From NCBI GenBank assembly GCA_027622315.1, contig JAQBZW010000006.1, positions 1-33,826 on the forward strand: 33,826 nucleotides of DNA, read 5' to 3'. Position numbers and translations under genes: made by a program. This DNA comes from Chloroflexota bacterium (GTDB lineage Bacteria; Chloroflexota; Dehalococcoidia; UBA2979). Below the pieces are notes generated by a model, which saw only the letters and a list, made by a program, of their open reading frames with translations, made no database searches and was not told the DNA's origin. This document shows positions 12,087 through 21,470 of this stretch, piece after piece (within the stretch, counting starts at the first letter, position 1; every line of letters starts with the position of its first letter).

Positions 12087-14525
12087 ATGCCCTCACCACT
12101 TTATGGAATGACCGTGCTCGACATCTCCGAGGGCATCGCCGGCCCGTTCTGCGCCAAACTGCTCGGTGACCTCGGCGCCGACGTCTGCAAGGTCGAACCA
12201 CCGGGTCGCGGCGACCGCACGCGGCAACGGGGACCGTTCCGCGACGGCATCGCCAACCCCGAAGCGAGCGCGAGCTACCTCTACTTCAACACGAGCAAGC
12301 GCGGGGTCACGCTCGATCTGACCGACGCCTCCGACCGCGAGCGGTTTGCTCGACTACTCCAACGCTTCGACGTAGTGATCGCGGGCGAGACCGAGGGTGA
12401 ACTCGCGGCGCGCGGGCTCGGCTTCGATCAACTGCGCCTGTGGAATCCCCGTGTGATCCTCACGACCGTCTCCGGGTTCGGCTCGACCGGACCGCACGCG
12501 GGATACCGCTGGTCGCACCTGATCGCGTGCGCGACCGGCGGCTGGTCGAATGCCTGCGGGACGCGCGATCGTGAACCGCTGCAGGCCGGCGGCGCGATTG
12601 CGGAGACGTTCGCCGGCGCGTTCGCGGCCACCGCGACGCTGCTCGCGGCGCACGGCCGTGCATCGCACGGCGGCGGCGAGCACGTGGACGTGAGCGCGCA
12701 GGAATCCGCGCTCACGGCGGCGCTCTTCCCCACGCTCGCGTACGAGTACCGGGGAGCGATCGCGGAACGGCACTCCGCGACCGGTCCCGGCCCCTCGTTC
12801 ATGCTCCCCACGCTCGATGGCTACATCGGCGTGAACGTGCTCACGCAGGCGCAATGGGATCTGCAGTGCCAGTTCTTCGACTGCGCCGACATGCTCGACG
12901 ATCCCCGCTTCGCGGCGGGCGCGCGGAACCTGCACGCCGAGGAGGCGCGCGCGCGTTTCGCACCGAAGGTCGCGGACCGCAGCGCGGAGGAGGTCTTCCA
13001 CGATGGTCAGGTCTGGCGCGTCCCATTCGGGCTCGTGCCTGACCTGCGAGCCATCCGAGGGATGTTGCCCCACCAGGAGCGGGAGTTCTTTATCGCAATC
13101 GACCACCCGGTCGCGGGCACGGTGGAGCTGCCGGGCACCTGGTTCAAGTCGACGGCGACGCAGCCGGCGATCACGCGGGCGCCATTGCTCGGCGAGCACA
13201 ACGATCAACTACTCGGCGAGACCGCCACCGATAACGACGCGCCACAGGTGGCCGTCACGGACGCGACGTCTGCTTCGTCCGCGAACCCCCCGCCGCTCGA
13301 GGGCGTCCGCATCGTCGATCTGTCGATGTTCATGTCGGGACCGATGGCGATGCAGATCTGCGCGGACGCCGGCGCCGAGGTGGTCAAGGTCGAGTCACTG
13401 CAACGCATCGACGGCTGGCGAGGGGGCGGCGGCGGACCCGGCGACGCGCCGTGGGAGCAGTCACTCACGTTCAACTGGGTGAATCGCAACAAGACGGGCA
13501 TCACGCTCGATCTGACGGACGCACGCGGCGTCGCACTGGTGAAGCGCCTGATCGCCGACGCCGACGTGGTGATCGAGAACTACACACCACGTGTCATGCC
13601 CAACTTCGGCCTGACGTACGACGTGCTCCGTGAGATCAAACCCGACCTGATCATGATCTCGATGCCGGGCTTCGGGCTCGACGTCTCCTGGCGCGACTAC
13701 GTCGCCTTCGGCATGTCGACGGAACAGATGTCGGGGATGAGCCACCTCACCGGCTACGACGACGGACCGCCGCTGTTCACGACGACGAGCGGCGGCGATC
13801 CGTTCGTCGGCGTGCTGGCAGCAACGACCATCCTTGCCGCATTGCAGCACCGTCGCCGGACCGGCGAGGGCCAGCACGTCGATCTCAGCCAGATCGAGAC
13901 CTGCACGATGTACATCGGCGAGATGCTCGCGGGCTGGTCGCTCGCCGGGGAAGACCCCGGGCGTGTCGGCAACCGCCACCCGACGGCCGCGCCGCACAAC
14001 ACGTACCTGTGCGCCGACGATCGCTGGATCGCGATCGCGTGCGAGGACGATGGCGAGTGGAGCGCGCTCGCATCGTTGATCGGGCACGCCGAGTGGGCGA
14101 CGGACGGATCCCCGTACGCCAACGCGGCCGGCCGGCGGACCGCACTCAACACGCTCGACGCCGCGATCGCGGCATGGACGCGGCCCCACGGCCACATCGA
14201 GCTGATGCACCGCCTCCAGCGCGCGGGCGTGACCGCCGGAGCCGTGATGAACGGCCCGGAGCTGCTCGCCGATCCGCACCTCGCGGCGCGCGACGCGTTC
14301 ATTCCGCAGGACCGCCCCGGCGTCGGCGTGAAGCACTACCCCGGTCAGCCGTACCGCTTCGCGTTCGCGCCGCCACCGCCGACGCGGCGCTCGCCGCTGC
14401 TCGGCGAGCACACCCGTGACGTGCTCTGCGGCCGGCTCGGCGTGAGCGACGAGGAGTACGCCGCGCTCGAGCGTGACGATGTCGTGGGCACGATCCCGAT
14501 CGCGGCACGTGGGGGCGAGCGCTGA
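12087..14525 (+). CDS. Tandem-fused CaiB/BaiF (class III) CoA-transferase, two full domains
   Basis: Domain 1: MTVLDISEGIAGPFCAKLLGDLGADVCKVEPPGRGDRTR; domain 2: VRIVDLSMFMSGPMAMQICADAGAEVVKVESLQRIDGWR...NRNKTGITLDLTDARG. Confidence 0.9.
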   Translation: MPSPLYGMTVLDISEGIAGPFCAKLLGDLGADVCKVEPPGRGDRTRQRGPFRDGIANPEASASYLYFNTSKRGVTLDLTDASDRERFARLLQRFDVVIAGETEGELAARGLGFDQLRLWNPRVILTTVSGFGSTGPHAGYRWSHLIACATGGWSNACGTRDREPLQAGGAIAETFAGAFAATATLLAAHGRASHGGGEHVDVSAQESALTAALFPTLAYEYRGAIAERHSATGPGPSFMLPTLDGYIGVNVLTQAQWDLQCQFFDCADMLDDPRFAAGARNLHAEEARARFAPKVADRSAEEVFHDGQVWRVPFGLVPDLRAIRGMLPHQEREFFIAIDHPVAGTVELPGTWFKSTATQPAITRAPLLGEHNDQLLGETATDNDAPQVAVTDATSASSANPPPLEGVRIVDLSMFMSGPMAMQICADAGAEVVKVESLQRIDGWRGGGGGPGDAPWEQSLTFNWVNRNKTGITLDLTDARGVALVKRLIADADVVIENYTPRVMPNFGLTYDVLREIKPDLIMISMPGFGLDVSWRDYVAFGMSTEQMSGMSHLTGYDDGPPLFTTTSGGDPFVGVLAATTILAALQHRRRTGEGQHVDLSQIETCTMYIGEMLAGWSLAGEDPGRVGNRHPTAAPHNTYLCADDRWIAIACEDDGEWSALASLIGHAEWATDGSPYANAAGRRTALNTLDAAIAAWTRPHGHIELMHRLQRAGVTAGAVMNGPELLADPHLAARDAFIPQDRPGVGVKHYPGQPYRFAFAPPPPTRRSPLLGEHTRDVLCGRLGVSDEEYAALERDDVVGTIPIAARGGER

Positions 14526-15758: not shown

Positions 15759-17083
15759 ATGCGATCATCGCACAGCCTCGACCGGGTTGCAGTGGCATTC
15801 GACGACCAGCGGCTGATCGCCGACGCGGGGCTGCTCTTCCCGGCGACGCTGGCTCAGCACCTCGGGCTGCGTGCACTGGTGGACGCCCACGTCGACCTCG
15901 GTGCCGCGGTGGGACGCGCACACGCCGGGGAGAAGGTGGTCGCGCTGGTGGCGTCGGCGCTCGCCGGCGGCGACTGCATCGATGATGCGGATGCGCTGCG
16001 CGCGGGTGGCACCGCCGCGGTGCTCGGCCAGCGGGTCCCGGCGCCCTCCACGCTGGGCACCTTCCTGCGCGGCTTCCGCTGGGGTCACGTCCGTCAGCTC
16101 GACGCCGTCAGCCGGCACCTGCTCGCCCGGGCGTGGGCGGTTGGCGCGGGCCCGGGCGCCGAGCCGTTCACGCTCGACCTCGACTCCACCATCTGTGAGA
16201 CGTACGGGCTGCAGAAGGAAGGGCCCGGCATCACGGCTACACCCACGTCCGTGGCTACCACCCCCTGGTCGCGGTCGGCGCCGGGACCGGCGACGTGTTG
16301 CACGCGCGGTTGCGCGGCGGGACCGCGAACTCCGGCCGTGGCGCCGGGAGCTTCCTCGCGGAGACCATCGAGCGGGCGCGCGCGGCCGGCGCCAGCGGCA
16401 CGTTGACGGTGCGGGCGGATAGCGGCTTCTACAACCACGCGGTGGTGGCGGCGGCGCGCAAACGCCACGTCCGCTTCAGCATCACCGTCCGGCTGTCGCC
16501 CGGGCTCCACCAGGTGATCGAGGCGATCCCGGAGCGCGATTGGACGGCGATCCCGTACTGGTTGGAGGGCGGCGCCGACGTGGCGGAGACGACCTACACG
16601 CCGTTCGCGTCGCAGCAAGACGCTTCGCCCGTGCGGCTGATCGTCCGCCGCGTGCGCCCCACCCCGGGCTCCCAGCTCGCGCTGCTCGCGACCTACGACT
16701 ACCACGCCTTCATCACCGACCGTGAGGGCGACACGCTCAGCCTCGAGGCCGACCACCGCCGTCACGCGGAGATCGAGAACGCGATCCGCGACCTCAAGTA
16801 TGGGGTCGGCCTCAACCACCTGCCGTCGGGGAAGTTCGGCGCGAACGGCGCCTGGCTCGCGGTCCAGGTGCTCACCCACAACCTCGCCCGCTGGACCGCG
16901 CGCCTCGGCCTGGGCGCCGGCATCCTCACCACCAAGACGCTGCGCCGACGCCTCTTCAGCCTCCCCGGACGGCTCGCCCGCTCGGCGTGGCGGCTCACGC
17001 TGCACCTCCCGGCTCGCTGGCCGTGGGCCGAAGACTGCACCACCGCGCTCCAACGGCTGCGCGCGCTCCCCCTCCCCGGCTGA
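15759..17083 (+). pseudogene. IS1380-family-like transposase, frameshifted near 16221-16226
   Basis: Frame 1 FTLDLDSTICETYGLQKEG; frame 2 HGYTHVRGYHPLVAVGAGTGDVLHARLRGG...LTVRADSGFYNHAVVAAARKRHVRFSITVRLSPG...RRHAEIENAIRDLKYGVGLNHLPSGKFGANGAWLAVQVLTHNLARW. Confidence 0.85.
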
Positions 17084-17297
17084 ACCGCGCCATGCCACGA
17101 CTGCTCGCAGCCTGCCCGGCGTCAGCTTGCCCAGCGTCCGCCCGCACAGCATCCACAGCGCCCACGCTGACGCTCACGCGCCGCCTCTCCACATCCCATC
17201 GCCCCCGCGTGCCCTCGCCCCCGCGTCATCCGCCCCGCGAACGCCACGCGTCTACCGTCCGTGCGATCTCGCCCCGCCGATCGGTGGATCCGGGCTT

Positions 17298-17998: not shown

Positions 17999-19204
17999 TC
18001 AGAACGCGCCGCGCTCCCGGAGCTCTGCGATCTGCTCCCAGCTGTAGCCGTGCTCGGCGAGCACGGCCTCGGTGTGCTGGCCCGCCTCAGGCGCCGGACC
18101 GAACTGCAGGGCAACGCCGCGCAGCGCGAACGGCGGCGCGAGCGTCTCGACCGTCCGACCCGATCGGTGCTGCTTCGCCACGATGTAGCCGTTTGCGCGC
18201 GCCTGCTCGTCGGCGACGACGTCGCCGAGCTCGAGGATCGGGGACCACGGCAGGTCGCGTGCATCGAGACGCGCGCCGAGGTCCTCGAGCTCGAAGCCGG
18301 CGATCGCACCGTCGAGCTCGGCGATCGCCTCGCGCGCATGCGCCAGCAGCGCAGCGGGCCGCGCGAAGCGTTCGTCAGTGCGGAGGTCATCACGATCGAG
18401 CGCCGCGCACAGCGGCGCCCAGAAACGCGCCGGCTGGAGCATCGCGAACTGTAGCCAGCGCCCGTCGCGGCAGCGGTAGCTGTTGTACAGGGGGCTGAAC
18501 GCGTGCTCACGGCCGCGGTGCGGCCGGGGCGCCGCACCCACGAGCGCCTGCTGCAGCATCCAGCCGTTCGCCCACATGCCGTTCTGAAAGAGCGAGACGT
18601 CGACGATTGCACCTCGGCCCGTGCGCTCGCGCCGGAAGAGCGCCGTCGTGATCCCGGCCACAAGCGAGATCGCGGAGGGCAGATCGCCCATGGCGCCGAC
18701 CAGCCCGACCGGTTCGCCGTCATCGACGCGGAGCGTTGCCGCAATGCCCCCGCGCGACCAGTACGCCAGCTCGTCGAACGCCGGCCGGTCGACGTCCTCG
18801 CCTGCCGTCCCGTAGCCCGTCGCGTGCGCCACGATCAGCCGCGGATAGCGCTCGGCCAGGGCCGCCGCGCTCAGCCCCGCGCGCTCGAGCGCGCGCGCCC
18901 GCACGTTCGTCACGAAGACGTCTGACGCCGCCATCAGGCGGTGCGTGATCTCGCGTCCCGCGTCAGTCGCGAGATCGAGGTGCACGCTGCGCTTGCGGTT
19001 GTTCGCGAGCTCGAAGCCCGCCTCGATCGCCTTGCCGTCGACCGTGACGGTGGAGCCGCGACTCGGGTCGCCGCTCCCGGCCGGCTCGATCTTGATCACG
19101 TCGGCGCCGTAGGCCGCGAGCACCGCCGCGGCAGCCGGCGCCATCACCCACGACGCGAGCTCGATCACGCGGATGCCGGCCAGCGGCGCCTCGTCGTCGG
19201 TCAT
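17999..19204 (-). CDS. CaiB/BaiF (class III) CoA-transferase
   Basis: MTDDEAPLAGIRVIELASWVMAPAAAAVLAAYGADVIKIEPAGSGDPSRG; NNRKRSVHLDLATDAGREITHRLMAASDVFVTNVRARALERAGL. Confidence 0.93.
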   Translation of the reverse strand: MTDDEAPLAGIRVIELASWVMAPAAAAVLAAYGADVIKIEPAGSGDPSRGSTVTVDGKAIEAGFELANNRKRSVHLDLATDAGREITHRLMAASDVFVTNVRARALERAGLSAAALAERYPRLIVAHATGYGTAGEDVDRPAFDELAYWSRGGIAATLRVDDGEPVGLVGAMGDLPSAISLVAGITTALFRRERTGRGAIVDVSLFQNGMWANGWMLQQALVGAAPRPHRGREHAFSPLYNSYRCRDGRWLQFAMLQPARFWAPLCAALDRDDLRTDERFARPAALLAHAREAIAELDGAIAGFELEDLGARLDARDLPWSPILELGDVVADEQARANGYIVAKQHRSGRTVETLAPPFALRGVALQFGPAPEAGQHTEAVLAEHGYSWEQIAELRERGAF

Positions 19205-19341
19205 CGGGCTCCCTCCTTCGTGGGGACGCTCGGGTCTCAGCCCGAACCTCACGGGCGCGACTCGTCGCTACTGGCGGGAGGCGTCGCGTCCGCCCGGACG
19301 TCGCCTGCGGCGGGGAACACACGGCCCATCGACCAGCCCAG

Positions 19342-19686
19342 CCCGGTCGTCGCGCCCAGCCCGATCGTCGCTGCCCAACCCGCTCGTCGCGTCCAACCCG
19401 CTCGTCGCGTCCAACCCGCTCGTCACGCCCAGCCCGCTCGTCGCTCCCAGCCCGATCGTCACGCCCAGCCCGATCGTCGCTGCCCAGCCCGATCGTCACG
19501 CCCAGCCCGCTCGTCACGCCCAGCCCGATCGTCGCTGCCCAACCCGCTCGTCGCGTCCAACCCGCTCGTCGCGTCCAGCCCGCTCGTCGCGCCCAGCCCG
19601 CTCGTCGCGCCCAGCCCGCTCGTCGCTCCCAGCCCGCTCGTCACGCCCAGCCCGCTCGTCACGCCCAGCCCGCTCGTCACGCCCAG
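19342..19686. repeat. Minisatellite: 19 tandem units of 18 bp (three units of 19 bp)
   Basis: Units of the form CCCG(C/A)TCGTC(G/A)CG(C/T)CCA(G/A), with variants GCTCCCAG and the 19-bp GCTGCCCA(A/G); counted by hand, 16x18 + 3x19 = 345 bp. Confidence 0.95.
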
Positions 19687-19800
19687 CCCGATCCTTCCGT
19701 TCCGCTCAGACAGCATTCCCTGGCGTGCGATGCGAACCTCGCCCTGCGGAGCAGCGTGCCCCACGAATCTATCCACTCGCCGTCGTACAGGGCTGCCCAG

Positions 19801-19832
19801 GCGTCCGGGCGTCCGGGCGTCCGGGCGTCGTG
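19801..19832. repeat. Short 9-bp tandem repeat (GCGTCCGGG x3 plus partial)
   Basis: gcgtccggg gcgtccggg-type repetition read directly at 19801-19827, followed by gcgtc. Confidence 0.8.
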
Positions 19833-19928
19833 CCCGGCTGCCGAGGCGTCGGGTCGGGGCGTCGGGGCAAGTGCGGGCATCCGGCCCGCCGCGGATCGCG
19901 CGGACGACCGACGTGCCTCGGCCGGGCA

Positions 19929-20696
19929 TCAGCGGTCGTGGAACGTAGGCATGCGCTTCTCGACGAACGCGCGCGGGCCCTCGTGCGCGTCCTCGGTGGC
20001 AGCCGCGATGCGCGTGTACTCGCGATAGAGGCGCAGCCCCTCCGCGAGCGGCAGGTCGCGCCCGCGGTAGACGAGCTCCTTGATCAGCCGCGTCGCGGCC
20101 GGACCATTCGCGGCGATGCGCGCGGCCAGCGCCTGCGCCCGCGGCATCACGTCGTCGGGCGGCAGCACCTCGCTCACGAGCCCCGTCCGCAGCGCCGCCG
20201 CGGCGTCGATGAACTCGCCGCTGAGCACCAGCTGCAGTGTGTTGCTCATGCCGATGAAGTCGGGCAGGCGCAACGCGCCATACCCGTGGAGCACGTTCCA
20301 CTTCACCTCGGGCGCGCCGAACTGCGAGCGGTCGGAGGCGATGCGGATGTCGCAGAAGAGCGCGAGCTCGAGCCCGCCGGCGAGGCAATAGCCGTCGATC
20401 GCGGCGATCGTTGGCTTCGCGCACTCCATGCCGTTGTCCCAGCGGCGGGGCCGATACGGCGTCCATGCCCCGCGCTCGCGATCGCCGCCCAGCTCGTTCA
20501 GGTCGTGGCCCGCCGAGAACGCGCGCCCGCCGGCGCCCGACACGATCACCGCGCGTACGTCGCGGTCTGCCTCCGCGGCGCGGAAGCCCTCGCTGACCGC
20601 CTCGTACATGGCGTCAGTCATCGCGTTCATCCGCTCGGGGCGGTTGATCACGATCCGTGCGACCGCGCCTTCGACCACGTACTCGACCTCAGTCAT
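19929..20696 (-). CDS. Enoyl-CoA hydratase/isomerase family protein
   Basis: MTEVEYVVEGAVARIVINRPERMNAMTDAMYEAV, GAGGRAFSAGHDLNELGG, KPTIAAIDGYCLAGGLELALFCDIRIASDRSQFGAPEVKW. Confidence 0.93.
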   Translation of the reverse strand: MTEVEYVVEGAVARIVINRPERMNAMTDAMYEAVSEGFRAAEADRDVRAVIVSGAGGRAFSAGHDLNELGGDRERGAWTPYRPRRWDNGMECAKPTIAAIDGYCLAGGLELALFCDIRIASDRSQFGAPEVKWNVLHGYGALRLPDFIGMSNTLQLVLSGEFIDAAAALRTGLVSEVLPPDDVMPRAQALAARIAANGPAATRLIKELVYRGRDLPLAEGLRLYREYTRIAAATEDAHEGPRAFVEKRMPTFHDR

Positions 20697-20732: not shown

Positions 20733-21470
20733 TCAGGCGGTCATGCCCCCGTCGATCACGAACTCAGAGCCCGTGGAGTAGCTGCTGTCGTCGGAGGCGA
20801 GGAAGAGCGCGAGCTTCGCGACCTCATCCGCCTCGGCGACGCGACCCATGGGGATACGCGCGAGCCACGGCTCCATGTGGCCGGCGTCGATGCCCGGGAG
20901 CTGGTGGAGCATGGCCGTCTCGATCAACCCGGGGTGGATCGAGTTCACGCGGATGCCGTGCGGCGCGAGCTGCACCGCGGCCGACTTCGTCATCCCGCGT
21001 ACCGCCCACTTGCTGGCGGTGTAGGCGATCGAGCCACCGCCCCCGCGCAGCCCGGCGATCGACGAGATGTTCACGATCGAGCCGGAGCGCTGCTCGATCA
21101 TCGGCCTGGCCACCGCCTGCATGCCGAGGAATACGCCGACCTGGTTGATGTCGATCACCCGACGGTAGTCCGCCTCCGTCGCCGCCATCAGGCCGGCCGC
21201 GTGGTAGATGCCGGCGTTGTTGATCAGCACGTCGACGCGGCCGAACCAGCCGACGACCTCGTAGACGACCGCGCGCCAGCGCGCCTCGCTCGTCACGTCG
21301 TGGTGCAGGTAGCGCGCGTCGATCGCCGACGCCGTGCGCTCACCGTCCTCGTCGAGCACATCGGTCAGCACCACCGTCGCGCCCTCGGCCGCGAACAGCG
21401 TGCCCTCGGCCGCGCCCTGCCCGCGCGCGCCACCCGTGATCAGCGCGATCTTGCCGTCGAGTCTGCCCAT
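20733..21470 (-). CDS. SDR family NAD(P)-dependent oxidoreductase
   Basis: MGRLDGKIALITGGARGQGAAEGTLFAAEGATVVLTD, NNAG, SSIAGLRGGGGSIAYTASKWAVRGMTKSAAVQLAPHGIRVNSIHPG. Confidence 0.95.
   Translation of the reverse strand: MGRLDGKIALITGGARGQGAAEGTLFAAEGATVVLTDVLDEDGERTASAIDARYLHHDVTSEARWRAVVYEVVGWFGRVDVLINNAGIYHAAGLMAATEADYRRVIDINQVGVFLGMQAVARPMIEQRSGSIVNISSIAGLRGGGGSIAYTASKWAVRGMTKSAAVQLAPHGIRVNSIHPGLIETAMLHQLPGIDAGHMEPWLARIPMGRVAEADEVAKLALFLASDDSSYSTGSEFVIDGGMTA

Follow-up and report, generated by a model that had tools for sequence, protein, structure and literature searches.

The tandem array that separates an enoyl-CoA hydratase gene from a CoA-transferase gene in this Chloroflexota (Dehalococcoidia) genome is probably an intergenic bacterial minisatellite, neutral or nearly neutral, that has grown by slippage and unequal recombination. 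The window, by which we mean the whole 33,826-nucleotide stretch analysed, corresponds to contig C140 in a 3.13-Mb draft assembly that comprises 309 contigs. The array and its surroundings comprise the following features, with positions given in the window.

17999-19204, minus strand: CoA-transferase family III (CaiB-type) gene (PF02515, E 3.5e-91; ATG at 19204)
19205-19928, minus strand: noncoding spacer of 724 bp that holds the array
19336-19693, G-rich strand minus (mRNA-sense): minisatellite array, 19 full 18/19-nt units and a partial one
19353-19413, unstranded: 61-bp exact internal duplication, copy 1 (units B-C-C)
19517-19577, unstranded: 61-bp exact internal duplication, copy 2
19800-19829, unstranded: second, minor tandem repeat within the spacer, 3.8 copies of the 8-nt unit GGCGTCCG (TRF)
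19929-20696, minus strand: enoyl-CoA hydratase/isomerase gene (PF00378, E 8.9e-54)
20733-21455, minus strand: short-chain dehydrogenase gene (PF13561, E 1.4e-63; start approximate)

Genomic setting of the array

Transcription on the minus strand runs from the short-chain dehydrogenase gene through the enoyl-CoA hydratase gene and the array-bearing spacer to the CoA-transferase family III gene. A gap of 36 bp separates the dehydrogenase gene from the hydratase gene that follows it, and the two probably share one operon. The array fills half of the 724-bp gap within this co-directional cluster. The original prediction had assigned both flanking genes to the minus strand, which gene and domain matches confirmed, and had correctly placed the array upstream of the CaiB gene. 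The CaiB start codon is preceded by GAAGGAGGGAGCCCG, a ribosome-binding-site-like sequence (GGAGG). The nearest named relatives of the CaiB protein are encoded in Dehalococcoidia/Chloroflexota metagenome genomes, with 60% identity at best, and 52 matches to it were found in its own genome. A consensus scan, in itself a weak test, detected neither promoter-like nor terminator-like sites in the spacer. No Rfam family matched the spacer either, and a known RNA family was therefore rejected as the identity of the array.

Two further loci in the window were noted. A plus-strand gene at 12108-14525 encodes an 805-amino acid protein in which one CoA-transferase family III domain directly follows another. 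Roughly 0.9 kb past the CaiB gene, at 16295-17083 on the plus strand, lies what may be a remnant of a DDE transposase; it matches only the C-terminal part of the profile (positions 182-434 of 435).

Structure of the array

Between 19336 and 19693, 19 consecutive full units, of which 16 measure 18 nt and 3 measure 19 nt, are followed by a partial 20th copy, with the full units spanning 19338 (first start) to 19682 (last end). TRF set the boundaries at 19336-19690/19693 and scored the array at 515 (period 18) and 630 (period 164), compared with a maximum of 78 when the 724-bp spacer was shuffled 500 times with its dinucleotides preserved. The array is thus confirmed to lie above chance expectation, and chance is excluded. 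Eight unit variants occur in the order ABCCDEFBFGBCCHHEGGG, and the minus-strand sequence of a unit is GGGCTGGGC, GGGTTGGGC or GGGTTGGAC. Unit listing and TRF therefore uphold the original description of a 19-unit, 18/19-bp array with several variants, and the G-tract unit forms are much as claimed there. The recurrence of 19360-19414 at 19524-19578 with one difference, also described earlier, holds as well; the exact repeat at these sites is 61 bp long (19353-19413 = 19517-19577). This exact repeat, together with the variant order, shows that a block of several units was duplicated, as had been proposed, and the duplication accounts for the 164-bp TRF period. The array accordingly has the marks of a minisatellite, namely head-to-tail units of 10-100 nt above chance, and unit variants combined with multi-unit duplication.

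The statement that all frames remain open across the array was correct for the three plus frames and incorrect for the minus frames, each of which contains 2-3 TGA stops. A protein-coding array was rejected because of these stops and because the hydratase and CaiB proteins match same-genus relatives on both sides of the spacer.

Comparison with relatives and with other arrays

In the same-genus genome G001, the orthologous hydratase and CaiB genes (74% and 70% identity) are direct neighbours, and the 40 bp between them contain no tandem repeat. Since the spacer measures 724 bp here, its length varies between species, in a comparison that covers one same-genus genome and one genome of the window species. 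The hydratase-CaiB gene pair was absent from all other CaiB loci compared. A search of the window's own genome for the unit, which had been suggested as a check, recovered an array at the window locus only. No array of this unit was found in 60 relatives, where weak partial matches reached at most 49 bits. Likewise, a shallow search of a 393-genome draw from the class, in which two candidates were scored per genome, returned nothing at 1e-6. In another Dehalococcoidia genome, a C-rich tandem array of period 167 (L053 1028-1507), with sub-units containing CCAGCCCC, bears a loose apparent resemblance to the window unit.

We also surveyed other tandem arrays, with genome-wide counts resting on sampled stretches. 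A 230-kb sample of the window's genome, about 86% coding and picked regardless of repeats except for C275 (a weak unit match), contained eight other arrays scoring at least 80, seven of them intergenic and with units unrelated to that of the window. In the same-genus genome, three of five arrays at this score were intergenic in 177 kb. These intergenic fractions are approximate because the gene calls came from a simple codon-usage caller, which positioned one gene or more wrongly, the dehydrogenase among them. Intergenic tandem arrays are thus common and ordinary in this genome, and their unrelated units point to a general tendency of the genome, not to a device at CaiB. GC skew revealed no consistent rule of strand preference among 11 arrays. 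The window array is nevertheless not an average member of this group, as it outscores every other array in the 425 kb examined of its own genome and exceeds everything in the 230-kb sample in G-skew over 300 nt, with the coding strand as its G-rich strand.

Quadruplex potential and possible regulation of CaiB

We considered whether the array is a length-variable regulatory element, in which the number of units tunes or switches CaiB expression, either by changing the spacing or by forming G-quadruplexes in DNA or mRNA. This reading, which the original prediction had itself called speculation, is very unlikely and finds no support here. It draws on the 36 GGG tracts that the minus (coding) strand of the array places ahead of CaiB, on a 300-nt G-skew that exceeds everything in the 230-kb sample, and on the difference in the spacer between two species of the genus. 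The predicted G-tracts on the coding strand are real, but the quadruplex potential attached to them is weak. The loops measure 2 and 10-15 nt, with the longer ones lying between GGG pairs, and no stretch of the array fits the rule of four G-tracts with 1-7-nt loops (G3N1-7). G4Hunter gave a mean of 0.91 and a borderline maximum of 1.28, with values of at least 1.2 in 19 of the 334 25-nt windows of the array. Across the genome sample, 0.6% of 25-nt windows scored as high as the array's peak. Ordinary RNA folding would compete, as the array RNA folds somewhat better than its shuffles (z -2.56). Judged from the sequence, long-loop quadruplexes in the array are possible but not favoured. Canonical four-G-tract stretches occur elsewhere in the window, at 17195-17222 on the minus strand and at 19851-19877 on the plus strand, the latter in the array's spacer on the opposite strand.

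Two published systems bear on this reading. In Mycobacterium tuberculosis, copy-number change of promoter tandem repeats was measured within populations and gene switching was reported (PMC12817950). The window array resembles these repeats in lying upstream of a metabolic gene, whereas no promoter was found in its spacer and the analysis covered one genome of its species. In Xanthomonas and Nostoc, GGGNATC repeats, whose 7-nt units leave short loops, are spread over many loci and fold into quadruplexes in vitro (PMC4692102). They share with the window array G-rich tandem units and a mostly intergenic location, many of them between co-directional genes. In contrast, the window array occupies a single locus and has 18-nt units with 10-15-nt loops, so it has neither four G-tracts joined by short loops (1-7 nt) nor a unit present at many loci.

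Mobile-element and assembly explanations

The array could alternatively be cargo or a remnant of a mobile element, either a MITE holding a minisatellite or a derivative of the genome's palindromic family. We regard this as improbable, and the evidence largely refutes it. An interspersed palindrome, CGTTCGTCCCGAGTGAAAGCGAGGGAC(G), has 16 copies at two or fewer mismatches in the window's genome, intergenic where inspected, and several copies lie within or beside tandem arrays. Outside the window its sites are L068 6310-6662, L083 3091-3283, L114 1992-2060 and L115-L120. The palindrome was absent from a reversed control and from 12 relatives, including the same-genus genome. A palindrome-associated array unit, GGACGAACGGGGAGGCC, resembles the window unit GCGACGAGCGGGCTGGGC, but the resemblance between the window unit and the L083 array unit is only modestly above control. 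Moreover, an nhmmer profile of the palindromic family (CGTTCGTCCCGAGTGAAAGCGAGGGACG) built from 18 copies had no match in the window, and membership in this family was rejected on these two grounds. A mobile-element origin was rejected because the sequence on either side of the array occurs once in the genome and good terminal inverted repeats are lacking at the array's ends, the spacer containing just 10-11-nt inverted pairs. BrickBuilt, a MITE of Porphyromonas gingivalis, comprises a 23-nt minisatellite with leader and tail bearing inverted ends, in 19 copies per genome (PMC4596501). It is likewise an intergenic minisatellite of similar unit length, whereas the window array has single-copy flanks in place of repeated ones and no terminal inverted repeats of this kind.

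An assembly artefact, with the array or its copy number arising from mis-joined short metagenome reads, is very improbable: the draft is fragmented (309 contigs) and such assemblies fail at repeats, but the units are diverse and ordinary short reads exceed the longest exact repeat (61 bp) in length. They should therefore span ambiguous stretches, so that gross misassembly is not expected.

Discussion

The minisatellite reading is supported by the tandem score, the variant order, the array-free gene pair of G001, the confinement of the unit to a single locus, the abundance of unrelated intergenic arrays, and the absence of promoter, terminator and Rfam matches. In its head-to-tail noncoding units of roughly 10-100 nt, its variants and its multi-unit duplications, the array resembles the bacterial minisatellites/VNTRs used for MLVA typing. 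Copy-number variation between strains is the hallmark of VNTRs; the analysis covered one genome of the window species. In the simplest origin, a short GC-rich segment between the hydratase and CaiB genes would have served as a seed and been multiplied in tandem by replication slippage and unequal recombination. A block of several units was duplicated later, as the exact 61-bp repeat and the order of the variants show. Any effect on CaiB expression would be at most incidental and would come either from the distance that the array puts between CaiB and the transcript upstream or from a weakly structured G-rich leader. Neutrality is most likely, with the absence of a detected function counting as weak evidence.

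As it stands, the array adds one more well-formed intergenic minisatellite from an uncultured Chloroflexota (Dehalococcoidia) lineage, and its significance is small. It documents a gene pair separated by 40 bp in one species and by 724 bp in another of the same genus, and it could serve as a strain marker for the window species. We think it quite improbable that the array is a leader element of variable length in which the number of units tunes CaiB expression through G-rich DNA or mRNA structure, acting as a rheostat in a catabolic cluster. If copy number does vary and alter expression, however, the array would represent a rare case in Chloroflexota of a catabolic gene tuned by a repeat.
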